IMG/VR virus record: IMGVR_UViG_3300036399_001505
Span: 1 to 57,475 of that record
DNA length: 57,475 nucleotides
Strand: one strand, 5' to 3'
Source: a virus
Positions within the stretch are counted from its first letter, which is position 1; the number at the start of each line of letters is the position of its first letter. The notes under the pieces were generated by a model. That model worked only from the letters and a program-made list of their open reading frames with translations, was not told the DNA's origin and did no database searches. A program made the translations under genes and the position numbers. Below are positions 3,110 to 50,724 of the stretch, piece after piece.

Positions 3110-3342
3110 CCACCCCATCCCTCCCGCCCGACATAGAGCGCTGCCCCGGCGTGGGCGAGCAGGAGGGCCATGAGTGGTTCTGGCGCGAGGGGTGCCACGA
3201 CTGCGCCCGGCGCTTTGACCTGTTCAGCGGAGCCCCTCCCGGCTCGCCCACCATGACCCCACCGCCGATCGTGGTCTTTGAGTGTGAGGCCAGGCTGACC
3301 TTTAGGGACGCCCGGCTGATCCAGTGGGCCCGCGAGGGATAG
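3106..3342 (+). CDS. Hypothetical protein with possible zinc site, 78 aa
   Basis: Last gene of the plus-strand operon, coupled by ATGA to the gene before it. It contains a His/Cys-rich stretch (EGHEWFWREGCHDCARRF) that could bind a metal. The C-terminal part (VFECEARLTFRDARLIQW) looks like a strand-helix unit. It is convergent with the KilA-N gene, with 45 bp between the stops and no obvious terminator hairpin there. Confidence 0.5.
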   Translation: MTTPSLPPDIERCPGVGEQEGHEWFWREGCHDCARRFDLFSGAPPGSPTMTPPPIVVFECEARLTFRDARLIQWAREG

Positions 3343-5407: not shown

Positions 5408-6274
5408 TCAGGCGTTGTCGTAGATGGTGTGAACCTGGCCCAGCACCATCAGGCTGGCGCCGTACTTCACCAGAGCGCCTGCATCGCCCTCCTCCTGCTT
5501 GGAAGTGATCCGGCCGTAGCAGAGCTTCCTCTCAGTGGTGCCACCAGGCCCGACCCGCAGATACTTAACGGCGAGCTTCTCGGCAACACCCAGCTGTCGG
5601 ATCACCTCCATGATCTTGTGATCGACCGATTTATGCACGGTCATACCCTTAAAGGCGATGCTGGAGTCGGTATTGATTCCGATAGAGATTGAAGCGCCGC
5701 GGGTTACCTGATCGTGCGTGAGAACCTTCTCGTCCTGTTCTTGCGTCGAGAGAGGGGCGCCGGTGACGTTGAGGAGTTGGATCGGCTTGCCGGTTCCATC
5801 CAAGGGGTAAAGGCCCGTGGTCACGGTGCCAGCGGCAACGGCGGCCGAGGTGATGTTGGCGCCGGTGAGGGCATAGCTCACGGTGAAGGGGGAGGCGGTA
5901 GTAACCCCCGTCACGGTGAAGGCGCCGTTACAGCTCGCGAAGGGGCTCGGAAGGGCGGCCACGGTGATCCGATCGCCCACGAGCACACCAGCAGCGGCGT
6001 TGAGGGTCAGGGTCACCACGTTGGTAGCAAGCGCCGCATTGGTGACGGTGCGAACCACGCCGTTTACATTCAGCTGGAAGGTGGAGGCCTCCCCGCTGGT
6101 GCTCACAGCCCCGGCGCCACTGATCGCGTTGGCGGTGTTCAGCCAGGCGCTGAGGTTCGCACCGTTGTTGGCGGCGGCGGCAGCAGCATCTTCCAGTGCC
6201 ACGGATGCGAGTCGCATCGGGACGATAAAATGCTGGATATCCAGCGCGGCGGCGTAATCAACGGTCGAGGGCAT
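5408..6274 (-). CDS. Probable major tail (tube) protein
   Basis: 288 residues, rich in Ala, Val, Thr and Gly with alternating beta-strand character, as in siphovirus tail tube proteins. It starts MPSTVDYAAALDIQHF. The middle (about 55-165) resembles an Ig-like beta-sandwich insertion (AAGVLVGDRITVAALPSP and FTVTGVTTASPFTVSY). It lies directly downstream of the tail-assembly chaperone gene, fitting the tail module. The start is 24 nt downstream of a motif copy. The assignment rests on context and composition, not on a signature motif. Confidence 0.6.
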   Translation of the reverse strand: MPSTVDYAAALDIQHFIVPMRLASVALEDAAAAAANNGANLSAWLNTANAISGAGAVSTSGEASTFQLNVNGVVRTVTNAALATNVVTLTLNAAAGVLVGDRITVAALPSPFASCNGAFTVTGVTTASPFTVSYALTGANITSAAVAAGTVTTGLYPLDGTGKPIQLLNVTGAPLSTQEQDEKVLTHDQVTRGASISIGINTDSSIAFKGMTVHKSVDHKIMEVIRQLGVAEKLAVKYLRVGPGGTTERKLCYGRITSKQEEGDAGALVKYGASLMVLGQVHTIYDNA

Positions 6275-6291: not shown

Positions 6292-7529
6292 CTACCTGGA
6301 GTTTTCCCGGCTCGCCAACACCAGCACCGCGCCGGCCTGGGCTGCGGTAAACGATCGCCCCGGCACCGCATCGGTGGGCACCAGCAGGGCCACGACCTCG
6401 CCGGCCTCAGAGGCGAACTCCCGCATCCGGCCCGCGGCGCTGCGCTGGGCCACGAGGAACCCGCCCCAGTGGCCTGCATCCACCCGGTAGGGGGCCAGGA
6501 GGATCGCATCCTCGGCCGCCCAACACAGCCGCGGCGGCGGGGTGACGCCACGGCCCTGGGCCTCCAGATCGGCCAGCCATGGGCCGTCGAGCACGAACCC
6601 CGGCAGGAGGTTGCGCTCCAGCAGCTCCAGCAGGGCGGCGCCGGCCTCGCTCGGGGGGCGCGGCTTCTCGGCCACCTCCACCCAGAAGCAGAAGTCCCGC
6701 AGGCTGTAGGGCTCGGGCTGGGCTTCGCGATTGCGGTTGGTCTCGGCGAGGATCAGGGCGATTTGGGCGACGCCTTTCTCTTCCCGGTGAAGCCTTTCGC
6801 GTTCGGCGGCGTGGCCCGCCTGGAGGGCCTGGAGGACATAGCCGGCGGGGAGCTTCCCGAATCGCTCGCGGCTGAACTCGGGGGCTCCGGGCCAGAATCT
6901 GCGGCAGTCCCAGAAGGCTCGGGCCCAGTCGGGTCGGTCGCAATCGAGCCGCTGACCTCCTGCAACTTTCCCAGCGCCTCCTCCAGCGCCCGCATCTCGG
7001 CCGCCGGGTCCTGCTGCAGGCCAGCGCCGGCCCGCTCCTCCTCCTGCTCAAAGGCGTGGAGGATCCCCAACAGGGGGCCGGGGAGCTTGCGGGTCTGCTC
7101 GTCGGTCCAGGCGGGCTTGATCCGCTGCAAGATCACGGTGACGGCCCGGATCGTGACACGGTTGGTGATGGCCCTGGCTTCTTCCAGGAAGGGGCCGATG
7201 ATCTCAGCGTGAACCACCTGCAGGGCCTGCTCCTCGGGGCTCATCCGGCCGGCTTTGGCGCCCTGTTCCTGCGCCAGGAGCCGGACAAGCAGGCCGTAGC
7301 ACCAGTGGGCAGTGTGATCGGGGGCGGCCTGGCTGAGGGCCACCGCAGCGGCGGTGATCAGGCGATAAAGGGCATTCTGCGGGTCGATCTCCCGGATGCT
7401 CTGCATCTCATCCACCGTGAGGTAGCCCAGCCGGGGAATCACCAGCTCGCCGCCGTTCCACTCGATCGTGGCGGTGGCCTGCTCGGGGGGCTGGGGGGCG
7501 GTTTCCCAGGGGAGGAGGTCAAAGGTCAT
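6292..7529 (-). CDS. Tail-assembly chaperone, -1 frameshift fusion (GT-like)
   Basis: If ribosomes slip back one base at GGGAAAG (6972-6966), the first 188 residues are joined to a second frame ending at 6292, giving about 412 residues. The second frame reads like a genuine protein (DWARAFWDCRRFW, then FGKLPAGYVLQALQ and IALILAETNRN), whereas the zero frame after the site becomes Ser/Pro-rich. In lambda and many siphoviruses the G and GT chaperones are made the same way from the identical heptamer and assist tape-measure and tube assembly. Here the gene precedes the tube gene rather than following it. It starts in an ATGA overlap with the gene at 7526-8026. Confidence 0.75.
6299..6309 (-). 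promoter_or_regulatory. Late start-associated motif, variant CGGGAAAACTC
   Basis: It differs from the consensus in the last base. It lies inside the last codons of the frameshift product (which end in RENSR) and 24 nt upstream of the tail-tube ATG. Confidence 0.6.
6753..7529 (-). CDS. Tail-assembly chaperone, zero-frame product (G-like)
   Basis: 258 residues if no frameshift occurs. Residues 1-188 (MTFDLLPWETAPQPPEQATA, YLTVDEMQSIREIDPQNALY, then a helical region with IIGPFLEEARAITNR) look like a folded chaperone domain. The last 70 residues are Ser/Pro/Ala-rich and overlap the alternative frame, so they may be only weakly constrained. This short form would correspond to lambda gpG. Confidence 0.6.
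   Translation of the reverse strand: MTFDLLPWETAPQPPEQATATIEWNGGELVIPRLGYLTVDEMQSIREIDPQNALYRLITAAAVALSQAAPDHTAHWCYGLLVRLLAQEQGAKAGRMSPEEQALQVVHAEIIGPFLEEARAITNRVTIRAVTVILQRIKPAWTDEQTRKLPGPLLGILHAFEQEEERAGAGLQQDPAAEMRALEEALGKLQEVSGSIATDPTGPEPSGTAADSGPEPPSSAASDSGSSPPAMSSRPSRRATPPNAKGFTGKRKASPKSP
6966..6972 (-). other. Programmed -1 frameshift site GGGAAAG
   Basis: In the zero frame the codons are CTG GGA AAG, so the site has the required G-GGA-AAG phase for simultaneous slippage to GGG AAA. The same heptamer is used in lambda G/T. After the slip the new frame stays open for 224 codons. Confidence 0.7.
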
Positions 7530-8496: not shown

Positions 8497-9900
8497 TTAG
8501 CGGCGGCGGGGCTTGCGGGGCTGCGCTGACTCCTGCGCCAGTTGAAGCGCCTGCCGAATGGTGTCCTTGTCCAGTAGGTTGCCAGACTTGACGCCTACTC
8601 CGTCAATCCCTTGGGTTTTGATGAACTTTCGCTTGCTGTAATAGCTAAACACCGCTTGCGCTTGCTGCTTTGTAATACCTCCAAGTTTCTGGATCTGACC
8701 CGTCAATGCTTGCTCTGCTTGTACTCTCCTTCCGGCAATGTCCCTTAGCGCTGAGCGGGTTTCCTGGGGGAGCCTTGAGGGGCTGCGCGTTGGCTTTTGT
8801 GCTGCCGTCTTGCGCCTTGGCTTTTGATTTTCGCCGGATAGCTTGCGATCGGGCCGGGGCTGAGCGGTTGGAGCCGGGACGCCGGGGCGAGGCTGCGGAA
8901 CGAACCCTTTGGGGAGAACGCGGCTGGTCATGCCTCTCTGCGGGCCGATCCGCTTCACCCCACGCAGGAACTCAACCGCTCGCGTTGCGGTCACCTGGCC
9001 AATCGCTGCCCGGCCAGCCTGCTTCTTCGTTTCCGGCTGCGCCTTGATGCTCCGGTTGTAGTTGGCGATTGCCCTGGCCTCGGCTCGCTGCCGCTGCCCT
9101 TGCCTGCCGGCGCCTGCCTTGGCCTTCCGTGCAGCAATGACCCCAGGCTTCAGGCCACGGGGCTTGGCGATCGTGCCGGAGGGGCGGGCCTTCTTGCCTT
9201 GAATGTTGGCCAGACCTGGCGAGGCATCTGTAGGCATCTCCCAGGCTTTGCGCCTCTTTCTTGACGGCTGATACCTCCCGAGGATTCGCGGCCCCCTTGC
9301 GCTGGGGTTGGCCGCCCACTTCTTGGCTTCCGTGACATTGCGGAAGTCCTTGCGGCCCATCACCGGGTCGCCCTTGCGGTCAATGATCGTTGCGGTTGCA
9401 CCCTTTCCGCCTGTGGTGACCATGACCCTCCGGCCACCGGGCAGGCTTGCGGTCTGCCTGCCTACTGAGCCAGCAGGCTTATCCCACTTCAGAGCCCGAG
9501 GCTTGCGGGCTGGCGTGGCTGGCTTGGGCGCCGCCACCGGCTTGGCCGCCACCTTCCGCCCTCCCCGAATCACCCCCGCCCGCGCTGCCATCCGCACCGT
9601 GGAGGCAGCCCGCACCTTCCCGAGCCGGTTGGCGCCCTTGGTGACGGCGCCGCGTTGCGCCCGCAGGCTGAGCGATCCCCTCAGGCTGCGATCGGCTGGA
9701 TCCTTGCCGGCCAGCTTGGTGCGGCTGCGGCGGAGGCTCCCACGGGCCCCGAGGGTGCCACCGGTGACCTTGGGCCTGGCCGCTCGCCTGGTGGCCGGCG
9801 TGCTCCGCTTCGAGGGGCCACCGCCGGGAGTCGAGGCAAATCGCCCGCTGTTGTCGCGGACATAGCTGGTGCGTCTGCCTCTGCTGCCGCCGCGGGCCAT
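8497..9900 (-). CDS. Basic phage protein B, shared N-terminal tag
   Basis: 467 residues, strongly basic throughout. The N-terminus has RRTSYVRDNSGRFASTPGGG, shared with proteins A (1-703) and C (12787-13908). The body is Lys/Arg/Ala/Pro-rich with a few more ordered pieces: GGKGATATIIDRKGDPVMG near residue 165, and a C-terminal region AQAVFSYYSKRKFIKTQGID with DTIRQALQLAQES. It could be an internal or DNA-binding virion protein; the shared tag followed by different bodies suggests a common targeting signal. This is inference. The start is 21 nt after a motif copy with no Shine-Dalgarno sequence. Confidence 0.7.
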   Translation of the reverse strand: MARGGSRGRRTSYVRDNSGRFASTPGGGPSKRSTPATRRAARPKVTGGTLGARGSLRRSRTKLAGKDPADRSLRGSLSLRAQRGAVTKGANRLGKVRAASTVRMAARAGVIRGGRKVAAKPVAAPKPATPARKPRALKWDKPAGSVGRQTASLPGGRRVMVTTGGKGATATIIDRKGDPVMGRKDFRNVTEAKKWAANPSARGPRILGRYQPSRKRRKAWEMPTDASPGLANIQGKKARPSGTIAKPRGLKPGVIAARKAKAGAGRQGQRQRAEARAIANYNRSIKAQPETKKQAGRAAIGQVTATRAVEFLRGVKRIGPQRGMTSRVLPKGFVPQPRPGVPAPTAQPRPDRKLSGENQKPRRKTAAQKPTRSPSRLPQETRSALRDIAGRRVQAEQALTGQIQKLGGITKQQAQAVFSYYSKRKFIKTQGIDGVGVKSGNLLDKDTIRQALQLAQESAQPRKPRRR

Positions 9901-9921: not shown

Positions 9922-9932
9922 CAGTTTTCCCG
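9922..9932 (-). promoter_or_regulatory. Late start-associated motif CGGGAAAACTG
   Basis: Exact copy, 21 nt upstream of the ATG of basic gene B and 11 nt after the stop of the small gene before it. Confidence 0.7.
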
Positions 9933-10071: not shown

Positions 10072-10082
10072 CAGTTTTCCCG
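10072..10082 (-). promoter_or_regulatory. Late start-associated motif CGGGAAAACTG
   Basis: Exact copy followed by CAGGCAG, 20 nt upstream of the ATG of the tiny gene at 9944-10051. Confidence 0.7.
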
Positions 10083-10500: not shown

Positions 10501-11013
10501 TCAGCTCCTCAGCAACATCCCCGCGCCGCTCATCCCCTGCGGGGCGATCCGGGGCACGTTGAGGGCCGTGGCAATCCGGTTGATCAGCGCTTGGGTCCGC
10601 TCGTCCCGCTGCCCCTGCGCCGTGGCCCTGGCGCCGCCGCCGCCGAAGCGGTAGCGGGCCTTTAGGAGGGAGGTGTCCCACGCCAGCTTGCCGGCCTGGT
10701 TCAGTTGCTCATCCCGCGTGGGCGAGGTGCCGGGGATCGGGCCTTCGTATTCCTCGGCGTTTCCGAGGTGAGCAGTGCCCGCGTCAATCTCATCGGCCTG
10801 GATCTCCTCCAGGTTCACGATCTCGTCCAGCCACGCCTGGATCTGCGTCACGGTGCTGGGGCTGTGCGTGGCGACCGCGTTCATCTGCTGCGTCAGCTCC
10901 ACCAGGCTGCCCTCAGTGGCGGGCCAGCCGATGTAGGTGCGGATCAGATCCCGATCGTTGCGCGTGCTAGTGGCCGTGGGGCGCCAGAGGGGGTCAGGGG
11001 CGAGGATCGTCAC
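10501..11013 (-). CDS. Late-operon protein of unknown function, 170 aa
   Basis: Starts at GTG 11013, 20 nt after a motif copy. The N-terminus (MTILAPDPLWRPTATSTRND) precedes an alpha-helical central part (LVELTQQMNAVATHSPSTVT, VNLEEIQADEI) and a C-terminal part with LLKARYRFGGGGARAT. Given its place after the Mu F-like protein it may be a small head or connector protein. No family recognised. Confidence 0.55.
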   Translation of the reverse strand: MTILAPDPLWRPTATSTRNDRDLIRTYIGWPATEGSLVELTQQMNAVATHSPSTVTQIQAWLDEIVNLEEIQADEIDAGTAHLGNAEEYEGPIPGTSPTRDEQLNQAGKLAWDTSLLKARYRFGGGGARATAQGQRDERTQALINRIATALNVPRIAPQGMSGAGMLLRS

Positions 11014-11021
11014 GGCGCGGG

Positions 11022-11270
11022 TCAGGCTGCCTGCAGTTTTCCCGCCGCAGGATCTTCCAGGCCCACGCGAGCCCCATGCAGCGTGCCCAGCCAGTACCGG
11101 CCCTCGGGGTCCAGGTTGGCGGTGAGCAGCCGCAGGATCTGCTCCCCTTCCGGGTCGTCCGCCACGGCTGTGAGCATCCGCAGGCCCTGCCGCGCCGCCG
11201 GGGCGTTGCGACCGAGGACAGCGACGCTGAGGCCCTGGAACAGGCGGAGCGTGGGGGAGCGGTCGGGCAT
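11022..11270 (-). CDS. Late-operon protein of unknown function, 82 aa
   Basis: A mostly helical protein starting MPDRSPTLRLFQGLSVAVLG. ATG 11270 is preferred over an in-frame ATG at 11282 because it lies 21 nt from the motif at 11292, the usual spacing. Its C-terminus (PAAGKLQAA) is encoded across the next motif copy, GGGAAAACTG giving GKL. No family recognised. Confidence 0.5.
   Translation of the reverse strand: MPDRSPTLRLFQGLSVAVLGRNAPAARQGLRMLTAVADDPEGEQILRLLTANLDPEGRYWLGTLHGARVGLEDPAAGKLQAA
11034..11044 (-). promoter_or_regulatory. Late start-associated motif CGGGAAAACTG
   Basis: Exact copy, overlapping the last codons of the gene at 11022-11270 and 20 nt upstream of the GTG at 11013. 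Confidence 0.7.
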
Positions 11271-11291: not shown

Positions 11292-11302
11292 GAGTTTTCC
11301 CG
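11292..11302 (-). promoter_or_regulatory. Late start-associated motif, variant CGGGAAAACTC
   Basis: One mismatch in the last base; 21 nt upstream of ATG 11270. Confidence 0.55.
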
Positions 11303-11440: not shown

Positions 11441-11451
11441 CAGTTTTCCCG
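11441..11451 (-). promoter_or_regulatory. Late start-associated motif CGGGAAAACTG
   Basis: Exact copy followed by CAGCAG, downstream of a terminator and upstream of the unresolved short frames; a GTG lies 20 nt downstream. Confidence 0.65.
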
Positions 11452-12786: not shown

Positions 12787-13908
12787 TCAGGGCCTGCGAT
12801 CGCGGCCGGTGGATCTCGCCGCCCGCTTGGCCAGCAACCTCTGAGCCGCCTTTGCGCTTTCAAGCTCCGGGTAGCCTTGCGCGGCCCTGGTCAGCCTCGC
12901 AATGCGATTCTCGGCCCTGGGTGGCTTGACCCTGCCAGCCCTGGCCAAGGCGTCATACAAAGCGCCGGCCTTTTGATCCTTTGCTCTAATCGCTGACATC
13001 TGCCTTTCCGCAGTGGCGATCATGCGCCCCTCCTGCTTTTTGCTCATTCGGGTGCGTCCGCCGGGGGAAGCCGAGGCAATGGCCACGCCCATCGATGCGG
13101 TCCGAGATCCTTGGCGTGCAACAAACTGCTCTCGGCTAATGGTTGCCGCTTTGCCTGTGGGCTTGCCTTTCATCACACCACCGCCAACAACGCGAGCCCC
13201 GCGGATCTTTCTGGCAGCGGTGCTAGGCGCGAGCTGCAAGGCCTTGGGGTTGTACTTCATGCGCCCCCTATTGCCCGTGGCCATCCCGACCTTTAGGCGC
13301 CTTGCCGATTGACTCATGGAGCGAGTAATCGCGTCAATCTGGCCAGGCGTTAATTTGTTTTTGCGCTTGCCTACATTGGCGATTGGTTGCATCCTTCCTT
13401 CGGAAAGATTAGTCAACTGTGCTGCTGTGTTTCCTGCAACGAAAAACTTTCGCTTGCGTGCTGAGCGCTCAACTTGTATTGCCCTCTGCGTCGCTTTCGG
13501 CAGGGCTCGGAGTCGCCTCGCGTAATCTTTCCGGTTCGCCGCTGACGCTGGATCAACCCGATCCTTCCTGGCCTCTGGTGATTGCATCCAGCCGACCGGC
13601 TTCTTTGCGGCGGCCACCTTTCCTCGCGCCTTCCCTCCCCTGCTCAGCGCCCCCTGAGGCGCCCCCTTGAGGCGACTGGTCTGCGTGGCCCTGAGGTTCC
13701 CCGCCCCGGTGCGCAACCGTCCCCCGCGGGCTGTGGCGCCGTTGCCGCCCACGCTTGTGATGCGCCCCGAGTTGTCCCGCGTGAGGCGATTGGTGCCGCG
13801 GCCGGCCTTCTTGGCTGGTAGTCGCTTGGGGGCGCCACCGCCCGGTGTGGAGGCGAACCGGCCGCGACCATCCCGCACGTAGGACGTTCGGCGGGTTCCT
13901 CGGGGCAT
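12787..13908 (-). CDS. Basic phage protein C, shared N-terminal tag
   Basis: 373 residues. It begins MPRGTRRTSYVRDGRGRFAS and has a second block RLTRDNSGRITSVGGNGATA near residue 40, as in protein A. The rest is Arg/Ala/Lys-rich with short ordered-looking pieces (RKRKFFVAGNTAAQLTNLSE; KLTPGQIDAITRSMSQSARR). It sits between portal and the Mu F-like gene. Head morphogenesis, DNA condensation or ejection are all possible; none is shown. The start is 20 nt after a motif copy. Confidence 0.7.
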   Translation of the reverse strand: MPRGTRRTSYVRDGRGRFASTPGGGAPKRLPAKKAGRGTNRLTRDNSGRITSVGGNGATARGGRLRTGAGNLRATQTSRLKGAPQGALSRGGKARGKVAAAKKPVGWMQSPEARKDRVDPASAANRKDYARRLRALPKATQRAIQVERSARKRKFFVAGNTAAQLTNLSEGRMQPIANVGKRKNKLTPGQIDAITRSMSQSARRLKVGMATGNRGRMKYNPKALQLAPSTAARKIRGARVVGGGVMKGKPTGKAATISREQFVARQGSRTASMGVAIASASPGGRTRMSKKQEGRMIATAERQMSAIRAKDQKAGALYDALARAGRVKPPRAENRIARLTRAAQGYPELESAKAAQRLLAKRAARSTGRDRRP

Positions 13909-13928: not shown

Positions 13929-13939
13929 CAGTTTTCCCG
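13929..13939 (-). promoter_or_regulatory. Late start-associated motif CGGGAAAACTG
   Basis: Exact copy beginning at the base after the portal stop codon, 20 nt upstream of the ATG of basic gene C. Confidence 0.7.
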
Positions 13940-15481
13940 TCAGTTCAGGGGCAACCCCTGCGCGTCCACGCCACCCCCGGCGAGGTCATTGGGGCCCGGT
14001 GCCGGCGGGTTCATCAACGCCTGCTGCCGTTCATCCTCGGCGGCCAGATCGGCGGCCTCCTTCTGGCCATCGGCACCAGGGCGGAGCATGCCCCGCTTCT
14101 GCGCCAGGTGCGTGACCGTCTCGCGCATGAGCAGGCCCTTGTCATAGAGCGTGCCGGCGAGGGTGAGCAACGCATCGTCCACCGGCTTATCGGTGACCCC
14201 TGGCAACAGGTCAAGGCCGGCACCGGGCTGGGGCAGCTCGCCGGTGAAGGCCCCCCAAAGCTGGAAGAGGCTCTCCCATGCGCTGCTCTTGCTCTCGGCC
14301 ATTGCGGTGATGGTGGCCTGCAGCTGGGCCCCTTCCAGCTCGGCCTGCGTGGCGGTGCGCTCACCGCTGCCGCTGAACAGGAACGACAAGGTAGAGCGAT
14401 CAATCAGCTTCTCGATCCCCTCCAGGTGCGCCAGGTGTTTATCGAGGCTGCTGCCGGAGGGTTCCGCAAACTCCAGGCCCTCCCCGGAGCCGGCGTTCGG
14501 GAACTCAACAACGCTGTTCGGCCCCAGCATCAGCGGCAGGGGCTCGCCATTTGGCCCAGCCATCCGGCGCCCTTTCACCACGGCCACCGGCAGAGCACAT
14601 CGGTGCAGCAGCTCCTTCAGGTCGGAGTATTCGCGGAACCAGTCCAGGGTGAGGTTCGCCAGGCTCAGCAGCGGCAGGCCGCCCTCCCCGAAGCCGTCGC
14701 GACTGACGCCATACCAGACCACCGGCGGGCTCTCCAGCACCTCGCCCCTGGGCCCGGTGAAGGTGCCCTCCTGCGGGCGCCGGTCGGCATCGACGGCCAC
14801 CCGGATGTTGTATTGAGCCGTGACCCCCTTGCCGCCGTTGCCGGTGATCTCCAGGAGGCGCCAGCTGCCGCCCTTCATCACCCGGTATCGGGGCTCCAAC
14901 TTGACGCCAAACTCCTGGTCTTCAGCCTCGTGCCACTCCAGGATCGTGACGGCGATCGGCACCCGCCGTCCGCCCCGCTTGACGGTCCGCCAATTCAAAA
15001 CGTTCCGGCGCTCGGCGGCTGAGAACGTGGGCCGGCGGCCTTGGGCCCGCTCCTGCGCCCTGTTCTCGGGTGTCCCCTGCGGCGCGTCGGCCATCAGCAG
15101 GCAGCCGCCATCCCGGAGCACCAGGGCATCGGTGCCGAGGCCCCAAGCCTTCAGGCTGTTGCCCTCGCCGTCAATATCCTGGGCTGCATCGAGGAGGCCC
15201 TGCTGCACCCCTCGCAGCTGGTAACGGCTCAGCACCCCCGCGAAGGCGCTCACGCCATCCTTGAAAAAGCTCGGATAGCTGCTGCGCCCCACCCGCGCCT
15301 CATAGGCCTGCCGGGGTTCACCGGCCTCCTTTGGCAGGTGGCGCTTCTTTGCATCACCTCGCAGCAGATCCCAGCAGTCAGCGACCAGATCGAGGTCGCG
15401 CATCACCTCCCGCAGCTTCGGGTGCTGGAACGACGGCAGATCGCCCTTATTGCTCGGGTGGCTGATCTGCTGCTGCTGCAC
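13940..15481 (-). CDS. Portal protein (DUF4055-like)
   Basis: 513 residues starting with a Gln run (GTG 15481). Length, position next to terminase, and order of elements fit phage portal proteins of the DUF4055 kind: an N-terminal helical part with ARVGRSSYPSFFKDGVSAFA, a central clip/wing-like region (VVWYGVSRDGFGEGGLPLLS, LANLTLDWFREYSDLKELLH) and a C-terminal helical part (TATQAELEGAQLQATITAMA) ending in an acidic/Pro tail. The portal forms the dodecameric DNA channel at the capsid vertex. The start lies within the sigma-like gene, 21 nt after a motif copy embedded in that gene. Confidence 0.85.
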   Translation of the reverse strand: MQQQQISHPSNKGDLPSFQHPKLREVMRDLDLVADCWDLLRGDAKKRHLPKEAGEPRQAYEARVGRSSYPSFFKDGVSAFAGVLSRYQLRGVQQGLLDAAQDIDGEGNSLKAWGLGTDALVLRDGGCLLMADAPQGTPENRAQERAQGRRPTFSAAERRNVLNWRTVKRGGRRVPIAVTILEWHEAEDQEFGVKLEPRYRVMKGGSWRLLEITGNGGKGVTAQYNIRVAVDADRRPQEGTFTGPRGEVLESPPVVWYGVSRDGFGEGGLPLLSLANLTLDWFREYSDLKELLHRCALPVAVVKGRRMAGPNGEPLPLMLGPNSVVEFPNAGSGEGLEFAEPSGSSLDKHLAHLEGIEKLIDRSTLSFLFSGSGERTATQAELEGAQLQATITAMAESKSSAWESLFQLWGAFTGELPQPGAGLDLLPGVTDKPVDDALLTLAGTLYDKGLLMRETVTHLAQKRGMLRPGADGQKEAADLAAEDERQQALMNPPAPGPNDLAGGGVDAQGLPLN

Positions 15482-16418
15482 CGGTGCCTAGTCCTTCTGG
15501 CCCAGTTTTCCCGCTTGCGTGGGGGTCGTGACAGGCACCAAACAAATCCAACTGCTCCGCCACCTGCAGGATCTCAACCGGATCCGTGATGCGCCTCCCC
15601 GCCTTGCCCTCGGGGCCTCCAACCCCGTCAGGCACGACCAGGGCCAGGGCCTGCTGTTCTGGCGCCGGCTTCAGTCGCTCGCCCCAAATGATGCCCTCGG
15701 CGTGCCGCAGGAACTGCCCATGGGGCATCCGCGCCACCTGGCGCCGGGGCTGGGCATCCCAGGCCGTTTCCAGCATCTGCCGATCCGCCCACCGCAGAGC
15801 GGCATGGGCCTCGTCTGCGATCCGCAGGACCTCGTTCAGCTCGTCGTAGCTCTCGATCTCATCCCACGGGTCGGGCTCACGGTTGGCATGAAGAGCCTCA
15901 GGATCAAGGAGCCGCGTGGCCCCCTGTGCCCCCAAAACCGCCGTCACCTCCTCAGGCGCGAGCCCGGTGGCCTCCACCACGGCCGAGAGGGTGGCCCCGT
16001 CGGCGGCGAGGCGCCGCACCGTGGGCGCCACGTCCCTCCACTTATCGGGGAACTTCACCCCGGAGCTGTGGCCCTTGTCCCGCAACCACTGCGCCATGGC
16101 CCCGCGGATGTAGGGCACCACGCACGTGCTCAGGGCATAGGGGCGGTCGGTGGCCGGGTTGAGGCGTTCGGGGTTGTACCGGCGGCAGCCGTTCAGCAGG
16201 CCTCTGGCGGCCACCAGGAAGAGGTCGTCAAACGGCATCCGGGTGGACCGGGCCATCCGGTTGGCCATGCTGGTGGCCAGAAGGAGGTTGTCGGCCGCCA
16301 GCTGCTCGGACCACGCCGTAGGCGGCGGGAACCCCTTGAGCCGGTCCAGATCAGGGCACGGGTCAGGCCGGACCTTCTCGCTGCGGGCGGCTCTGAGGCG
16401 CCGGGTGGTGGTGGCCAT
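15447..16418 (-). CDS. Phage sigma-70-like factor
   Basis: 323 residues. Residues about 35-115 follow sigma-70 region 2 step by step: AADNLLLATSMANRMARSTR, then MPFDDLFLVAARGLLNGCRR, then ALSTCVVPYIRGAMAQWLRD, matching the 'NLRLV..iA', 'DLiQEG..GL..A' and 'yrFSTYa..wIRqai' blocks. Region 3-like residues follow (TLSAVVEATGLAPEEVTAVL). Region 4, which reads the -35 box, is degenerate or absent. It sits between terminase and portal and overlaps the portal start. I infer it may direct late transcription. Its own start (ATG 16418) lacks the motif. Confidence 0.75.
   Translation of the reverse strand: MATTTRRLRAARSEKVRPDPCPDLDRLKGFPPPTAWSEQLAADNLLLATSMANRMARSTRMPFDDLFLVAARGLLNGCRRYNPERLNPATDRPYALSTCVVPYIRGAMAQWLRDKGHSSGVKFPDKWRDVAPTVRRLAADGATLSAVVEATGLAPEEVTAVLGAQGATRLLDPEALHANREPDPWDEIESYDELNEVLRIADEAHAALRWADRQMLETAWDAQPRRQVARMPHGQFLRHAEGIIWGERLKPAPEQQALALVVPDGVGGPEGKAGRRITDPVEILQVAEQLDLFGACHDPHASGKTGPEGLGTGAAAADQPPEQ
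15503..15513 (-). promoter_or_regulatory. Late start-associated motif inside the sigma-like gene
   Basis: Exact copy within the 3' end of the upstream gene (encoding SGKTG), 21 nt upstream of the portal GTG. Conservation inside a coding region argues for a function of the DNA or RNA itself. Confidence 0.7.
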
Positions 16419-16474: not shown

Positions 16475-18022
16475 TTAGGCGCCATAGCCATAGCTCACTG
16501 TAGAGAAACTGATGGGACCAGAGCTGGAGAGATAGATCAAGAGCTGACTTGTGCTGTCCACAATGTCATCGAACGTTGCTGCGGGGAATTGCAGTAGCTG
16601 ATCTTTGACCACATTGCTCCAGGGGGCGGAGCGAGGCAGGAACACCCGGCCGTTGTTGAACTCCACGCTGGCAGCATTGGCGCGGGATTCCTTGCCGCCC
16701 ATGTCACCGACCCCGGCGGCAACCACCTGATAGCCGTGGGCGCCCTGCGTGAGGGTTTTGATCACTGCAGCACCGTTGGCTTTTTTCTCAATCACCAGCT
16801 CCCCGAAGCGGTGGCGGGTGTGCATTGAGCGGATCATGCTCACCGTGGCGGGGAAGTCCAAGCGCTCGTTCACCAAGTCCAGCAGCCATGCGCCCTGGTT
16901 GGTCTGCCCCCACAGGGTCATCGCCACCATGTCGCTACCGGCGGTGTCGTCGAAGGTGCAATCAACCGACAGGATCCGGCGGATGAAGTGCATCGGCAGC
17001 TCGGGATCATCGAGCTTGCCGGGCCAGGCCGGGCAGCCGTAGAACCGCATCCGATCCAGGAAGAACACCGTGCCCTTCCCGGCGCTCGGCCGCTGCTGAT
17101 AGATCGACTCCCAATCCCGCTCCGGCGTGTTGGCCTTCTTCCGCTTGATCCATCGCTCGTCAAAGCGATCGCGATCCAGGGCCTCACCGGGCTGACGGCT
17201 GTCGGCCTCGCGGGTGACGGTGGCCGGCAGGGGCTTAATGTCGTTGGCGGCCACCGCCGCGATCGGCAGGGAGACCACGTGCCAGCGCTCGCAGTCGTCT
17301 TCCAGGCCCTCTTTCTCCAGTTCCAGGTTCTTGCTCAACAGGTAGCCGATCAGATCGGCCTCATGCCAGCGGGTGTGAACCACCACCACGCCGTTGCCGG
17401 GCTCCTCACGGGCGCTCAGCACTGAATCCCACCAGTTGTGAACCTGCCGGCGGAAGGCCGCCGATTCGGCCTCTTCCCTCCCCTTGATCGGGTCATCGAT
17501 GAACAGCCAGTGCCCTGGCTTGCCGGTGCCCTTGCCGATGCCTGCAGTCCAGATCGTTCCGATCCCATCGGCGGTGCCCCATTCCTCCTTCCCTGAGCGG
17601 GTGGGGCTCAACGGGCCACCACTGGCGGCGAAGTAATCGCGGGCATTCTCGGAAAACCCCACCGCAAGATCCTGGGTCTGGCAGCAGATGCCCCCGGAGC
17701 GATCGGGGAACCGCCGCAGGCAGTAGCCGGGCAGGAACCGACTGAAGATTGTGGACTTCCAGTGCCTCGGGGGGAGCTCCACCATCAGCCGCGGCAGGTC
17801 GCCATCGGCGAAGCGCTGGCCAAGGGCGATCAGCCGTTCTGTGTGAGGCGTAAACGGGAAGCGCGGGAAGGCATCAGCGATGTACTGCCTGAAGGAATTG
17901 GTGTAAGGCTCCACTGCCGCCGGGATCGCCGCTTCTGCGGCCCTGGCCTCCTGCACCTCCCGCATCGCGGGGAAGCCGCCCCAGTCGTGGTAGGCGGCGT
18001 GGTGGAGGAGGTTTAGGGGCAT
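16475..18022 (-). CDS. terL: Terminase large subunit
   Basis: 515 residues. The ATPase half has a Walker A-like VELPPRHWKST near residue 85 and Walker B WLFIDDPIKG near 175. The nuclease half shows the RNase H-like acidic residues: ILSVDCTFDD, then LVIEKKANGAAVI, then FDDIVDSTSQ near the C-terminus. TerL pumps DNA into the prohead and cuts it. It heads the structural gene order, and the TerS candidate is far upstream (25929-26636). Confidence 0.92.
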   Translation of the reverse strand: MPLNLLHHAAYHDWGGFPAMREVQEARAAEAAIPAAVEPYTNSFRQYIADAFPRFPFTPHTERLIALGQRFADGDLPRLMVELPPRHWKSTIFSRFLPGYCLRRFPDRSGGICCQTQDLAVGFSENARDYFAASGGPLSPTRSGKEEWGTADGIGTIWTAGIGKGTGKPGHWLFIDDPIKGREEAESAAFRRQVHNWWDSVLSAREEPGNGVVVVHTRWHEADLIGYLLSKNLELEKEGLEDDCERWHVVSLPIAAVAANDIKPLPATVTREADSRQPGEALDRDRFDERWIKRKKANTPERDWESIYQQRPSAGKGTVFFLDRMRFYGCPAWPGKLDDPELPMHFIRRILSVDCTFDDTAGSDMVAMTLWGQTNQGAWLLDLVNERLDFPATVSMIRSMHTRHRFGELVIEKKANGAAVIKTLTQGAHGYQVVAAGVGDMGGKESRANAASVEFNNGRVFLPRSAPWSNVVKDQLLQFPAATFDDIVDSTSQLLIYLSSSGPISFSTVSYGYGA

Positions 18023-24020: not shown

Positions 24021-24565
24021 CGGCCAGCCTCCTCACGCAGTAGCAGCGAGCAACCGTGCTGGCCCCGCTGATCAAGCCACGCCGCTACCTCGCGGATCGC
24101 GGCGTGGGCATCAATGGATGGATCGTCGTCCCCGGTCATCTCTCCGCAAACCCTCTCCACCAACTCCCCGGCATGCGCGGCCGGCGGGGCGGTTGACGGA
24201 AATTCCGATGTGCGGGTTCCGTGCTGCTGCATCACCGGGCGGATGGCCGATTGGGCGGCGCCGTGCTGGCGGTTGAGGTCGTAGACAGCGCGGAGGGCAG
24301 GCCCAAAGCCGTGCCCTGGAGCGTTGTTGTAGGCGTTGCACAGCTCCTCATCCGTGACCACCGGGGCAGCCTCGGGGGTGGGCTCGTCGTCGCCTCGATC
24401 CAGCGCGATCAGCCGGTCGAGCTTGTCCTGATGCGGCTGCTGCTGCGCAGCCTCCAGCGCCTCCACCCGCTCCAGCAGGTTGACCAGCACTTGAGACGCG
24501 ACGACGCCGACAGCGGCGGCTTGGCGCAACCGGGTCAGGGACTCGGGGGATAGCGGTTCGATCAC
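24017..24565 (-). CDS. Hypothetical protein with coiled-coil N-terminus, 182 aa
   Basis: The first 60 residues are helical (LLERVEALEAAQQQPHQDKL suggests a coiled coil). A later stretch (TDEELCNAYNNAPGHGFGPA) and a C-terminal helix with HAAIREVAAWLDQRGQHGCS follow. Overlaps both neighbours by ATGA. No family recognised. Confidence 0.55.
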   Translation of the reverse strand: MIEPLSPESLTRLRQAAAVGVVASQVLVNLLERVEALEAAQQQPHQDKLDRLIALDRGDDEPTPEAAPVVTDEELCNAYNNAPGHGFGPALRAVYDLNRQHGAAQSAIRPVMQQHGTRTSEFPSTAPPAAHAGELVERVCGEMTGDDDPSIDAHAAIREVAAWLDQRGQHGCSLLLREEAGR

Positions 24566-25260
24566 GACTTCGCCTCAGGCTGCGCCAGCACCGAACGCAG
24601 CCACTCGGTAGCGGCTTCGTTGCTGTCGTAAAAATGGCTGTGAGCCTCGACGCCGCCGAGCATCAAACCGGCGATCCCTGGGCCGACTGTGGCCTCCAGG
24701 AGCCGGCCAACTTCTCCGGCCTGATGGATCAGCCAGCCGCCTAGGCAATGTGTGGTGTCGCGGGAGTGCCAGGCGCCCATCTCTAGCGCACCCTCCTGGA
24801 GGGCGGCAGCTGCGGCGGCCCTGAGGCGTTGAGGAGCGTCGGCTGCGATAACGATGCCAGTGGCCCCGTCGAGGTTGGCCCCGTCGAGGCTGGCGCCGAT
24901 GAGGCTGGCCCTGCTGAGGTTGGCCCCGTCGAGGCTGGCCCTGTTGAGGCTGGCGCCGATGAGGCTGGCCCCGCTGAGGTTGGCCCCGTCGAGGCTGGCG
25001 CCGATGAGGCTGGCCCTGCTGAGGTTGGCCCCGTCGAGGCTGGCCCTGTTGAGGCTGGCGCCGTTGAGGTTGGCCCTGCTGAGGTTGGCCCCGTCGAGGC
25101 TGGCCCTGTTGAGGCTGGCGCCGTTGAGGTTGGCCCCGTCGAGGTTGGCCCTGTTGAGGTTGGCCCTGTTGAGGTTGGCGCGTTGGCCGCTCGGATCACA
25201 GGCCAACCAGCGAGCGTGGCTGGCCAGGATTTCGGGCAGGTTGAGGAGTGATTCAGGCAT
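24562..25260 (-). CDS. Pentapeptide-repeat protein
   Basis: 232 residues from ATG 25260 (other in-frame starts at 25293 and 25302). After a helical start ([20 protein letters not shown]) come 21 uninterrupted A(N/S)L-type pentapeptides, which would form a right-handed quadrilateral beta-helix about five turns long. The C-terminal domain ([31 protein letters not shown]) looks folded. Some pentapeptide proteins mimic DNA and inhibit gyrase, but this one is too short in repeats and too neutral to assume that. Confidence 0.85.
24868..25182 (-). repeat. 21 tandem 15-bp repeats encoding pentapeptides
   Basis: Unit of the type GGGGCCAACCTCGAC with variation mostly in codons 1 and 5. The arrays are near-identical over several units (for example 24905-25115), so copy number may vary by slippage or recombination. 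Confidence 0.9.
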
Positions 25261-25382
25261 GGGAGCTTGAGGGGTGGAATGGGTGGTGAGCATGGGGCTC
25301 ACAGCTGTGCCGTAGTGGCGGTGCAGGCCCAGGGTTTTGGGGGATAGTGGTTAGGCCATCTCAAAAGATTGTTGTTATTTAT

Positions 25383-31496: not shown

Positions 31497-31907
31497 ATGA
31501 CCGCAACCCCTTCCGCCCCCGCTGCAACCGCAGCGTCTGCCCCCCTGGTCGGCGCTGACCTCCTCGCCAAGGTCAAGGAGCTGGGCGATGCTTCAAAGAG
31601 CGATCTGGTCCGCTCCACCGGCTACGTCAGCACCAAGAAGGACGGCACCGAGCGCCTCAATTTCACCGCCTTCTATGAGGCCCTGCTGGAAGCCAAGGGC
31701 GTGGGCTTTGGCGGCGACTCCTCGGGTCCCGGCAAGCCCGGCCGCAAGCTGAGTTTCACCACCAAGGTGCAGTTCAACGGGAACCTGATGGTCGGCAAGG
31801 CCTACACCGCCATGCTCGGCCTGGAACCCGGCGACGAGTTCGAGATCAAACTGGGCCGCAAGCAGGTCCGCCTGGTGCCCATCGGCGCAGGCGATAGCGA
31901 CGACTGA
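31497..31907 (+). CDS. cyAbrB-type cyanobacterial transcription regulator
   Basis: 136 residues. After an Ala/Pro leader the protein follows the cyanobacterial AbrB family closely: LVGADLLAKVKELGDASKSD, LVRSTGYVSTKKDGTERLNF, TAFYEALLEAKGVGFGGDSS, then the C-terminal AbrB-like strands KVQFNGNLMVGKAYTAMLGL and PGDEFEIKLGRKQVRLVPIG. In cyanobacteria these proteins (CalA/CalB, cyAbrB1/2) bind DNA and adjust carbon, nitrogen and hydrogenase genes. A phage copy could reset host metabolism or control phage genes. It is a single-gene unit with its own promoter and terminator. Confidence 0.92.
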   Translation: MTATPSAPAATAASAPLVGADLLAKVKELGDASKSDLVRSTGYVSTKKDGTERLNFTAFYEALLEAKGVGFGGDSSGPGKPGRKLSFTTKVQFNGNLMVGKAYTAMLGLEPGDEFEIKLGRKQVRLVPIGAGDSDD

Positions 31908-41407: not shown

Positions 41408-41644
41408 CTAGGTCTGGGTTGGATCCTGGGGATCCTCGGGGTCTCGCCGCCGCCGCCCATCCAGCTGAGCCAGCAAGGTTCCGCCTGTCGTGGCTGCTGC
41501 CAGGGCCCCGGTGCCTGCAGCCTTCCAGATCTCAACGCACTCCCCGCCCTGCGACTGGCAGTAGATCGCCCCGCCAAACCCCCCGGCAGCAGCAAGACCG
41601 AGGCACAGGGCCACGGTGTTGATGATCACCTCCCGGCAGTTCAC
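41408..41644 (-). CDS. Holin-like protein, 78 aa
   Basis: Two hydrophobic segments (TVALCLGLAAAGGFGGAIYC and AAGTGALAAATTGGTLLAQL) and a charged C-terminal tail (DGRRRRDPEDPQDPTQT), the shape of a class II holin. Overlaps the gene before it by ATGA-type coupling. Holins open the inner membrane to release the endolysin. Confidence 0.6.
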   Translation of the reverse strand: MNCREVIINTVALCLGLAAAGGFGGAIYCQSQGGECVEIWKAAGTGALAAATTGGTLLAQLDGRRRRDPEDPQDPTQT

Positions 41645-41907
41645 TGGGCCTCCAGTCGCGTCACCCGTCGATCAATGCCGTTGAGCGCACTCTCCACTTT
41701 CTCAAGCCGCAGTTCCGCAGCAACCTGGCGGCCGAGGATGGCTTTCTGGTTCTCCAATACCAGATCAAGCTGACGCGGCACGGTGATGCCGATGTAGCCA
41801 ATGCCAGCCACGGCCAGCAGGATTAGGCCCGCTGCCACCTGTTGCTCAACCTCGCGCCAGAAAGGTGCCTTGCCGGGGGTGCCTGGGGGCTGGTTGCCGC
41901 TGTCCAT
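41641..41907 (-). CDS. Membrane protein with coiled-coil tail, 88 aa
   Basis: One transmembrane helix (VAAGLILLAVAGIGYIGITV) then a heptad-rich tail (RLEKVESALNGIDRRVTRLE). Typical of phage hemolysin-XhlA-like or spanin-like lysis accessories. Its ATG is 19 nt downstream of a motif copy, so it heads the lysis cassette. Confidence 0.6.
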   Translation of the reverse strand: MDSGNQPPGTPGKAPFWREVEQQVAAGLILLAVAGIGYIGITVPRQLDLVLENQKAILGRQVAAELRLEKVESALNGIDRRVTRLEAQ

Positions 41908-41926: not shown

Positions 41927-41937
41927 CAGTTTTCCCG
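41927..41937 (-). promoter_or_regulatory. Late start-associated motif CGGGAAAACTG
   Basis: Exact copy followed by AAGCAG, 19 nt upstream of the first lysis-cassette ATG (41907). Confidence 0.7.
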
Positions 41938-44882: not shown

Positions 44883-45320
44883 TCAATCCTCAGTGATCAC
44901 GGTGCTCGTGGTGAGGCCCGGCGTTACCCCCGAAGCAATAGCAATGGTCGGGCTGATCGCCCCCTTGTAAAGAACCAGGGTTGCGCCCGAGGATGCAACC
45001 CCAACCGAGAAGTGTGTTGCGGTCGCAGTACCAGCCGTGCAAGCCGGGAAATCAAAGTTCGCCGCAGGTGACACCGCGTTGTCCGTCACCGTGAACCCGA
45101 CGGAGGAACGCGCTACACCGACGCGGGCATAGCCGGTGTAGACCACCTCGCTAGTGGCCTGCGTGCCCACTTCACCGGGGTCTGCGCTGTGCAGGGAGAA
45201 GAACAGCTGCCCCGCCGTCGCGGATCCGCGCAGACCGGCCGCATCGCCGATGTTGGCGATGTTTGTGTTTTGAAACACCAATTGCAGCCAGGCGTTTTCA
45301 AAGGCATTCGACTTGGACAT
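44883..45320 (-). CDS. Phage tail fibre-cluster structural protein
   Basis: 145 residues; MSKSNAFENAWLQLVFQNTN, then LFFSLHSADPGEVGTQATSE and YTGYARVGVARSSVGFTVTD. This order (LHTADPGE, Q.TSE..YTGYARV) is familiar from many phage structural proteins near fibre or head-decoration genes. The start has AGGAG upstream; the nearest motif is 49 nt away. Confidence 0.65.
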   Translation of the reverse strand: MSKSNAFENAWLQLVFQNTNIANIGDAAGLRGSATAGQLFFSLHSADPGEVGTQATSEVVYTGYARVGVARSSVGFTVTDNAVSPAANFDFPACTAGTATATHFSVGVASSGATLVLYKGAISPTIAIASGVTPGLTTSTVITED

Positions 45321-45360: not shown

Positions 45361-45651
45361 TCACTGCCTCAGTTTTCCCGGCTCGGACTCGGCCTCGGCG
45401 CTGGGCTCCGCCACCTCCTGGTAGGCCTCGTTCACCGCTGGCGTGGCCGGGTCGTCCGCCTGAAAGGTGTCGCTATTGGTGCGAGCCCGGCGGCGCCCAG
45501 TAAGCCGGCTCAGCCTTCCCTGCCCTTGCGCGGGGTCCTCGGGGGCTGCGACTTGCTCCTCGGCAGCGTCGTTGCCTTGAGCTGGCCTGGCCCATTCGGC
45601 GGCTGGGTCCCAGTCCATGCCAGGGCAAACGCTGATTGATAGAAAGCTCAT
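45361..45651 (-). CDS. Acidic late protein, 96 aa
   Basis: MSFLSISVCPGMDWDPAAEW at the start, then Gln/Ala/Glu-rich. Its last codons (GKLRQ) are encoded by the motif at 45370. A terminator-like hairpin separates it from the decoration protein. No family recognised. Confidence 0.5.
   Translation of the reverse strand: MSFLSISVCPGMDWDPAAEWARPAQGNDAAEEQVAAPEDPAQGQGRLSRLTGRRRARTNSDTFQADDPATPAVNEAYQEVAEPSAEAESEPGKLRQ
45370..45380 (-). promoter_or_regulatory. Late start-associated motif CGGGAAAACTG
   Basis: Exact copy followed by AGGCAG, in the last codons of the gene at 45361-45651. The next start (45320) is 49 nt away, an exception to the usual spacing. Confidence 0.65.
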
Positions 45652-46242: not shown

Positions 46243-47220
46243 TCAGGCCGCAAAGTTGGCCTTGGTCACGTTGTAAAGGCGGGCAGCCTTGCGGGGGTTC
46301 TTGATCACCGCCGCGCAGTCAATGTTGATCCGGGTTTTGAAGTGAGTCGTAGCGTAGGATTCGCCCACGTCATAGACCACCAGGCCCGGCTGAAGCTCGC
46401 CATTTACCATGCTGAGGCCTTGGGCCATGTAGACCGAATCCTCGCCAAGGGCAACGCAATAGATGGAGCAGGTATTGCCACCGCTCCCTTCGGTAAAGCC
46501 CTGAATCGGTACGTTGAGTGGGTCAACATCCGTGAGGATGATTTCCGCCTCGTCGTAGAACATTGCCGGCTGGCCGAGAGCATTGGTCTCGATCTGCAGG
46601 TTGCCGGTCAGGGTTTGATCGCGCCGCAGGGCCTGCAAGGCGGGCCTCATGCTCTTGGGAAAGATCAGTTTCTTCTCGGATGGCGCCGCGTCCACCTGAT
46701 TCATCATGTCGTCCAGTGCCGCCAACTTAGGGGAGGCGCCGGTGGCATGATTGGCGATGGCCTGGCTATTGGTGGATACAGCCGTAATCAGGTTGGCGAG
46801 GCCGTTGAACGACCTGCCGCCGCTGGCTTGGAGGCTGCCGCGAATAAAGTCGGTCTCCAGTAGCATCCGAATGGCTTTGGCGTTGCGGAGAACCTCGCTG
46901 TCGTGAGAGCCTCGGCCTTCGCGTGCGAGGCGCTGAACATCGGTTTCAATGTCAGCGGTGTAGATCGCCGTGATCACGGACTGAGGGATGGAGCTGCCTC
47001 GTCCATTTTTGGGCTTCTCGTCCAGGAGGCGAGCGGCCACAGCGGGCAGTTCGTCTTCCAGTCCGAACACTTCAGAGGCGCCAGTGATGTCCTTGAACGG
47101 AAGCTGCGCGAACAGGGGGCCGTTTTTGAGCATCGTCTCAATAACGGCAAGCTCCTGCAGATTCGCATCGGCTTCAAAGGACTTGCGCTCAAAAACTTGG
47201 TGGTAGGTGGTGATGGTCAC
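46243..47220 (-). CDS. Major capsid protein
   Basis: 325 residues from GTG 47220. The order after the scaffold gene, the length, and the mixed alpha/beta content fit HK97-fold capsid proteins: an N-terminal arm (YHQVFERKSFEADANLQELA), a middle with IYTADIETDVQRLAREGRGS, then KLIFPKSMRPALQALRRDQT and LGQPAMFYDEAEIILTDVDP, and a C-terminal YNVTKANFAA. The start has no Shine-Dalgarno sequence and lies downstream of a strong hairpin. The family assignment is by context and resemblance; no single diagnostic motif was used. Confidence 0.8.
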   Translation of the reverse strand: MTITTYHQVFERKSFEADANLQELAVIETMLKNGPLFAQLPFKDITGASEVFGLEDELPAVAARLLDEKPKNGRGSSIPQSVITAIYTADIETDVQRLAREGRGSHDSEVLRNAKAIRMLLETDFIRGSLQASGGRSFNGLANLITAVSTNSQAIANHATGASPKLAALDDMMNQVDAAPSEKKLIFPKSMRPALQALRRDQTLTGNLQIETNALGQPAMFYDEAEIILTDVDPLNVPIQGFTEGSGGNTCSIYCVALGEDSVYMAQGLSMVNGELQPGLVVYDVGESYATTHFKTRINIDCAAVIKNPRKAARLYNVTKANFAA

Positions 47221-47342: not shown

Positions 47343-47377
47343 GGGTGATCCCGCCGCATCGCGCGTTGGGATCACCC
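47343..47377 (-). other. Strong hairpin upstream of the capsid gene
   Basis: GGGTGATCCC and GGGATCACCC form a perfect 10-bp stem with a 15-nt loop, one base after the motif at 47379 and 123 nt before the capsid start. No T run follows, so it is more likely an mRNA stability, processing or control element than a terminator. Confidence 0.6.
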
Positions 47378-47378
47378 G

Positions 47379-47389
47379 CAGTTTTCCCG
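47379..47389 (-). promoter_or_regulatory. Late start-associated motif CGGGAAAACTG
   Basis: Exact copy directly before the hairpin. An ATG lies 19 nt downstream (47359), opening a 56-codon frame that overlaps the capsid start; the capsid GTG itself is 158 nt away. Confidence 0.65.
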
Positions 47390-48267: not shown

Positions 48268-48278
48268 CAGTTTTCCCG
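48268..48278 (-). promoter_or_regulatory. Late start-associated motif CGGGAAAACTG
   Basis: Exact copy, 10 nt after the stop of the small gene at 48289 and 40 nt upstream of the scaffold ATG. Confidence 0.65.
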
Positions 48279-50219: not shown

Positions 50220-50230
50220 CAGTTTTCCCG
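50220..50230 (-). promoter_or_regulatory. Late start-associated motif CGGGAAAACTG
   Basis: Exact copy, followed by AAACAGATACGG as at 50714; 19 nt upstream of ATG 50200. Confidence 0.7.
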
Positions 50231-50713: not shown

Positions 50714-50724
50714 CAGTTTTCCCG
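50714..50724 (-). promoter_or_regulatory. Late start-associated motif CGGGAAAACTG
   Basis: Exact copy, 19 nt upstream of ATG 50694. Confidence 0.7.

Follow-up and report, generated by a model that had tools for sequence, protein, structure and literature searches.

The virus record IMGVR_UViG_3300036399_001505 of IMG/VR, from a cyanobacterial virus, was analysed over its whole length of 57,475 bases, here called the window. A sigma factor gene lies on its minus strand (ATG at 16418, stop at 15447, 323 amino acids), flanked by the genes for the terminase large subunit (TerL, 16475-18022, minus strand) and the portal protein (13940-15481, minus strand). TerL is the syntenic neighbor by which we define the family of this sigma factor. 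A short motif, CGGGAAAACTG, is repeated on the same strand before late genes, and one copy (15503-15513) falls within the sigma gene itself, at its 3′ end, 22 nt before the portal GTG, as a predicted late promoter -10 element. No copy precedes the sigma gene or TerL. An earlier note made from the letters of this DNA alone had described the same arrangement, a sigma-like gene between TerL and portal with no motif of its own but with one in its 3′ end for portal, and the coordinates agree with it.

Domain make-up of the TerL-linked sigma factor

The protein matches two PHROG families over residues 38-190, 36098 (5.7e-14) and 351 (1.6e-12), which carry the general label "RNA polymerase sigma factor". 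A profile of 35 relatives, run against PDB, found solved sigma factors, the best being sigma-F 1l0o (1.5e-14), and the Pfam model Sigma70_r2 matched 26 of the 35 family members, the window protein not among them. An AlphaFold model gave sigma factors as its leading Foldseek matches, all of them. In this model the helices of region 2 are confident (residues 35-115; 10-residue mean predicted local distance difference test, pLDDT, mostly 84-92), and a region-3-like domain is also present. We place region 2, with its three helices for core binding and -10 reading, at residues 38-115 (16074-16307, minus strand), and the region 3-like helices at residues 125-171 (15906-16046, minus strand).

Pfam region-4 models gave zero matches across the 35 family members. 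Residues 178-252, where region 4 would be expected, are modeled as three helices without a significant PDB fold match; the sigma-F sequence profile extends weakly into them, and the idea of a region 4 hidden there was rejected for lack of fold support. The helical segment that replaces region 4 (residues 184-244, 15687-15869, minus strand) is possibly flap-binding. The window protein thus belongs to the sigma-70 family and keeps regions 2 and 3, with region 4 undetectable; the visible region 2 and degenerate region 4 of the earlier note are both borne out. Region 4 is absent as well from gp55 of T4 and gp36 of phiEco32, so that its loss does not exclude sigma identity.

The nearest NCBIfam models are PRK07408 SigF (2e-11) and then SigBFG (8e-8), with scores far below the curated cut-offs (44 against 261 bits, and 32 against 234). 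By sequence comparison the protein is a divergent derivative of the SigB/SigF/SigG group 3 rather than a member of it. Group 3 sigmas, including PRK07408, are its best sequence relatives and share with it a region 2.4 with a VP.IRG type motif instead of WWIRQ, but they retain region 4 and use -35 elements. The gene annotated "rpoS/SigF" in the cultured cyanosiphoviruses S-CBS2, S-CRES1-3 and PSS2 is the same gene, found directly after TerL and homologous over regions 2-3.

Two further kinds of sigma gene were seen. A separate subfamily of region-2-only sigma homologues of 171-176 amino acids (L195, L199, and L201 and L202, which are Cyanobium and Synechococcus metagenome-assembled genome contigs) occurs in both picocyanobacterial and viral contigs. 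A second sigma, host-like and of fuller length, is encoded in the early region of several relatives (L217, 3258-4115; L344, 16898-17815; S-CRES1, our L031, 4679-5530); none is detectable in the window.

The GGnAnnCT element and its distribution

Thirteen exact copies of CGGGAAAACTG were found in the window, all on the minus strand, with none on the plus strand and none of the reversed control; two CTC variants bring the total to 15 sites. The 10-mer CGGGAAAACT is counted 15 times against about 0.05 expected. All sites precede late-strand genes, while the degenerate form GG.A..CT stands upstream of just one of the 12 early plus-strand genes. The start codon follows at 20-26 nt for 12 of the 15 sites, much as the earlier note had it (about 20 nt), and at 41, 50 and about 160 nt for the others.

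That note had also proposed that a sigma lacking region 4 reads the motif as a -10-type element, and had looked to the co-occurrence of the two across phages, which we found when starting from either side; the proposal thus withstood the refuting case named there, a phage with only one of the two. From the motif side, we collected the 12 records longer than 30 kb in which at least seven copies share a strand. Nine of them encode the sigma, two are fragments that lack sigma, TerL and portal alike, and one begins in a methyltransferase gene whose insertion precedes the last 25 sigma codons. Among loci chosen by portal alone, the sigma lies directly or a short way upstream in 71 of the 72 that are informative, the single exception being that same methyltransferase-start contig (L205, IMGVR_UViG_3300044636_000846). 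Its DNA methyltransferase-like ORF (open reading frame) at 1-1160 lies between TerL/sigma and portal, with the region further upstream beyond the contig end, and the retained last 25 sigma codons, directly after this ORF, still bear the promoter. Every contig of sufficient length that encodes a sigma relative of about 49% identity or more (52-69% G+C) has CGGGAAAACT, exclusively on the strand of the sigma gene.

A sigma without the exact motif occurs at about 40% identity or below, each time with a homologous variant. The variants form a list that tracks sigma divergence: CGGGAAAACT[G/A], SGGAAAACY (in phages whose sigma is 41-43% identical), CCGGAAAACTGA (another lineage), GGAAAGCT and GGnAnnCTA; a clade with the sigma tail QPSLF uses SGGAAAGCT or AGGAAAGCT. 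This correspondence holds across 52-69% G+C. Two contigs whose own motif is GGAAAGCT have in addition one or two copies of CGGGAAAACTG beside tail-module genes (G009, 30937 and 42164; G013, 6699; reverse-complement coordinates), and one such gene has a near-identical counterpart in the window, the gene after 41937, so genes appear to move with a foreign but compatible promoter.

The cultured marine phages extend the pattern to far more distant sigmas. Blind motif discovery by expectation-maximization (EM) upstream of the late genes of S-CRES1, whose sigma is about 28% identical, yielded GG.A..CTAG, well above shuffled controls; 21 of the 30 forward GG.A..CTA copies in this phage lie within 75 nt of late starts, and reverse copies number five genome-wide. 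GG.A..CT was then carried unchanged into a held-out test, in which it was ranked among the 1024 patterns of the same shape by its occurrence before annotated gene starts. It ranks first in S-CBS2 (30 genes against 5.7 expected), PSS2 (12 against 2.7) and S-CRES3 (15 against 2.9), whereas in control phages without the TerL-linked sigma its ranks are 311 (S-CBS1), 87 (S-CBS3), 217 (S-CBS4), 139 (Syn5) and 546 (MinS1). Sense and antisense counts in the sigma-bearing marine phages are 30/5, 23/6, 12/1 and 15/1; these phages are mutually related, and the trials are not fully independent. Plain k-mer counting had shown no motif in S-CBS2, S-CRES1 or PSS2, because the motif is gapped; EM and the shape test found it. 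Two repeated k-mers were rejected as late motifs: TGTCCACTAA in S-CRES1 is a local tandem array, and CAACTCATGA in contig G050 is a repeat that includes a start codon and occurs at about 33-35 kb only.

Region 2 of sigma captures the -11 and -7 positions of the -10 element in sigma-70 promoters. In GG-n-A-n-n-C-T the A and the T are four bases apart, matching these two positions. The element may also resemble the -10 sequence of Bacillus sigma-F, a likeness that we take only as a lead. Among 112 non-redundant sites, conservation upstream of the motif is flat, at most 0.17 bit per position, which argues that there is no -35 element; downstream, G is preferred at -6 and -3, C at -2 and A at -1, and +1 is a purine in 95%. 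At 76 marine sites the lone raised position near +1 is the purine at +1, and no -35 conservation appears upstream there either. With the A and the T taken as -11 and -7, the conserved purine falls at +1, and from this layout we infer a transcription start about 7 nt downstream of the element. In three phages ATG follows the motif by 4-5 nt, a distance that rules out a -35 role for the motif at those sites, where the mRNA would be leaderless. The loss of region 4 and the absence of a -35 fit each other; the same fit has been argued for phiEco32 gp36 (PMC8948821).

The remaining predicted late promoters of the window, all on the minus strand, are as follows. Sites 20-22 nt before an ORF lie at 50714-50724 (20 nt, ORF 50251-50694), 50220-50230 (20 nt, 49751-50200), 41927-41937 (20 nt, 41641-41907), 13929-13939 (21 nt, 12787-13908), 11034-11044 (21 nt, 10501-11013) and 9922-9932 (22 nt, 8497-9900). 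Two precede short ORFs, with GTG (11441-11451) or ATG (10072-10082) 21 nt downstream, and the site at 729-739 is 26 nt before an ORF running off the window. The form CGGGAAAACTC is found at 11292-11302, 22 nt before ORF 11022-11270, and at 6299-6309, 25 nt before the tail protein ORF 5408-6274. The more distant sites are 48268-48278 (41 nt before ORF 47406-48227), 45370-45380 (50 nt before ORF 44883-45320, which has a separate Shine-Dalgarno-like accaggag at its start) and 47379-47389, about 160 nt upstream of the major head protein ORF 46243-47220. An inverted repeat, ggtgatccc...gggatcacc (47345-47373, minus strand), lies directly 3′ of this last promoter. The 159-nt leader of the major head gene folds no better than shuffles (z-score -0.9, not significant), and a stable leader RNA was therefore rejected, as was an RNA hairpin of CTG...CAG 3′ of the motif, whose two sides do not co-vary.

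The C-terminal tail and the sliding clamp

Past its helical part the sigma factor ends in a variable tail, hard to align and mostly modeled at low confidence, except for one short motif. In the window this is QLDLF (residues 289-293, 15540-15554, minus strand), a canonical beta sliding clamp binding motif that agrees with the bacterial consensus QL(S/D)LF (PMC9690074). Relatives have QLGLF, QLALF, QLVLF, QPSLF, QGSLF or QGNLF, often terminal: QLDLF forms the very last residues in three contigs, QGSLF or alike ends the protein in the marine clade, and QPSLF or QSSLF recurs in a distant clade. The general form Q..[LI]F is present in the tails of 26 of 34 representatives (75% clustering), where shuffles give a mean of 0.78 and a maximum of 4, and the strict form in 23 of 34, against a shuffle maximum of 2. 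The motif seems to be absent from S-CBS2 gp077 (L030, NC_015463.1, 16832-17560), as the annotated frame shifts and stops early at VPQGRC; the adjacent frame continues the family tail and ends in GRLQGSLF. The deposited S-CBS2 sequence probably holds a frameshift, either an error or a mutation.

We found no match to a beta clamp (DNA_pol3_beta_3) in nine phage genomes, in a search that detected its controls and did not cover clamps of the T4 gp45 family. No family-A DNA polymerase was found in the same nine genomes, again with controls detected, and the annotation of S-CRES1 lists no polymerase. With no beta clamp in these genomes, the clamp, if one is used, would be that of the host.

The sigma might read the motif and yet have a QLxLF tail that does not bind the clamp, the likeness being due to chance or to a hydrophobic tail that binds the polymerase. 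Short linear motifs alone are weak evidence, and PSS2 and a few others lack the motif. Against this, nothing else in the tail, which otherwise defies alignment, is clearly conserved, and the motif is found in at least three deep clades and far above shuffles; its form is the textbook QL(S/D)LF, placed at the very end in several relatives; and among the 359 ORFs of the window only the sigma has QL(S/D)LF near its C-terminus. We regard a tail without clamp binding as a serious possibility, if a somewhat doubtful one, and a sigma tethered to the host clamp, as the conserved motif would predict, as reasonably likely.

A proposed late transcription system

We propose that this protein is the late sigma factor of a phage lineage, acting at promoters with only a -10 element and probably tethered to the host clamp, and we think this the probable explanation of the whole. 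It builds on what is established at the sequence level, namely the domain make-up, the motif distribution, its co-variation with the sigma, the tail motif and a search that found no phage clamp. Through region 2 the factor would take the place of the host sigma on the core of the cyanobacterial RNA polymerase, and it would read a single extended -10 element, GGnAnnCT (here CGGGAAAACTG), 5′ of head and tail genes. Transcription would start about 7 nt downstream of the element, and with region 4 missing the factor would make no contact to a -35. Since the sigma gene has no element of its own, the factor would be made before the genes under its control, and the adjacent portal gene would be its first visible target. 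The C-terminal QLDLF tail would most likely serve to tether the holoenzyme to the host clamp on phage DNA in replication; late genes would thereby fire on replicated templates, as they do in T4 with gp55 and the phage clamp gp45. That the TerL-linked sigma reads GGnAnnCT we consider very likely, on the strength of distribution, co-variation and held-out tests. We lean only slightly toward the broader statement, that of a sigma family derived from a SigF-type cyanobacterial sigma, independently of gp55, with host DnaN as its late activator, no phage clamp and the GGnAnnCT element.

Several observations weigh against this proposal. Confidence in the whole-chain AlphaFold model is middling (mean pLDDT 69.7). 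Because the sigma is linked to the late module and inherited with it, recognition does not follow from co-occurrence by itself. When the gene junctions for the shape test were taken from a crude ORF caller, the groups separated in tendency only (median rank about 25 with the sigma and about 560 without) and the window itself failed, at rank 565; these called junctions were replaced by annotated starts. The QxxLF tail is missing from the sigma of PSS2 and of the L193/L198 types and is degenerate in L166/L168, so clamp binding is not universal. No gp33-like protein turned up, though no dedicated search for one was made, and in T4 clamp activation depends on this coactivator more than on the tail of gp55 (PMC7892883).

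Another factor could read the promoter (a host sigma, a second phage sigma or an activator), with the TerL-linked sigma otherwise employed. The link of sigma and motif is statistical, and the second, full-length sigma of several relatives would be a candidate reader. However, the family profile detects just one sigma gene in the window, S-CBS1 and S-CBS3 have an RpoD-like sigma yet neither the TerL-linked sigma nor the motif, the motif variant tracks the divergence of the TerL-linked sigma, and the missing -35 matches its missing region 4. We judge another reader unlikely.

Less likely still, and in our view quite improbable, is that the motif acts at the RNA level as a translation start element, as in cluster K mycobacteriophages, and has nothing to do with the sigma. 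The start-associated sequences (SAS) of cluster K are likewise many near-identical repeats in one orientation just before gene starts (PMC3203893). Most window sites stand fairly tightly at 20-26 nt before the start codon, and the downstream GCAG bases are conserved too. The cluster K SAS, however, are 13-bp sequences (GGGATAGGAGCCC) that stand 3-7 nt before the start, include the Shine-Dalgarno AGGAG and serve non-structural genes (PMC3203893), whereas the window repeats lie farther upstream, have no AGGAG Shine-Dalgarno and precede late genes. Start distances across the family vary from 4-5 nt to 41, 50 and about 160 nt, and one distant site has its own Shine-Dalgarno. CTG...CAG shows no stem co-variation, and CTC or CCA variants keep the CAG. 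The family pattern, for its part, preserves the A(-11)/T(-7) spacing and the +1 purine and changes with the sigma. That the repeats are mere module-boundary linkers for phage recombination is hardly credible: gene-plus-motif cassettes do move, as the CGGGAAAACTG copies beside tail-module genes of G009 and G013 indicate, but one site lies within coding sequence where it is needed (15503-15513), the downstream layout is fixed, only the late strand is used, and the -10 grammar diverges with the sigma instead of staying identical across lineages.

The proposed late sigma most resembles T4 gp55 in design. Both have region 2 homology and a tail and lack region 4 (PMC2988020, PMC7892883), both have late genes as targets at -10-only promoters without a -35, and in gp55 a clamp-binding motif ends a variable linker, with the phage clamp gp45 activating late transcription (PMC2988020, PMC7892883); for the window protein this last likeness is one of sequence motif. 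The differences are that the window sigma keeps region 3 and is of SigF-type origin, its promoter is GGnAnnCT and not a TATA-like element, its tail is the bacterial-type QLxLF and not LDFL, and the phage is siphovirus-type, not T4-like. T4 moreover encodes gp45, whereas the search described above, which left out the gp45 family, found no phage beta clamp here, and the host clamp would serve. phiEco32 gp36 is likewise a phage sigma without region 4 homology that uses a single-element promoter, but the element is another (tAATGTAtA, with starts 6-8 bp downstream; PMC8948821) and its C-terminus, EEFQGLIT, has no Q..[LI]F; homology was ruled out (BLASTP best E 0.58 over 8 residues). S-CBS2, S-CRES1-3 and PSS2 share the domain make-up and promoter grammar of the window, with a QGSLF tail in S-CRES1 and in the neighboring frame of S-CBS2; they differ in having GGnAnnCTA instead of CGGGAAAACTG, and PSS2 in having no tail motif. 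We found no description of a promoter or clamp motif for their "rpoS/SigF" gene in the literature searched, which left out most subscription journals.

Three other features were noted along the way. The window ORF 24562-25302 (minus strand) contains a 15-nt periodic repeat, GGCCAACCTC, at 24880-25165, and judged by its DNA likely encodes a pentapeptide-repeat protein. S-CRES1 has intergenic tandem and inverted TTGTCCACTAAA/GTGGACA repeats at 3242-3330 and 31506-31640, one of them beside replication genes, which are possible origin-type iterons. PSS2 (L032, 9249-10800) has three consecutive, near-identical "transcriptional regulator" genes, gp012-gp014, in near-identical 650-bp units.

With these results the "rpoS/SigF" gene of cultured cyanosiphoviruses, so far known by annotation only, becomes a late-transcription system that can be tested and has a defined promoter, in phages whose hosts, Synechococcus and Prochlorococcus, matter for the productivity of oceans and lakes. 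The GGnAnnCT motif offers a route to the late genes and start sites of many uncultured phages by sequence alone. Clamp-driven transcription has been called unique to T4-related phages (PMC2988020); if the clamp link proposed here is true, it arose at least twice and can use the clamp of the host.

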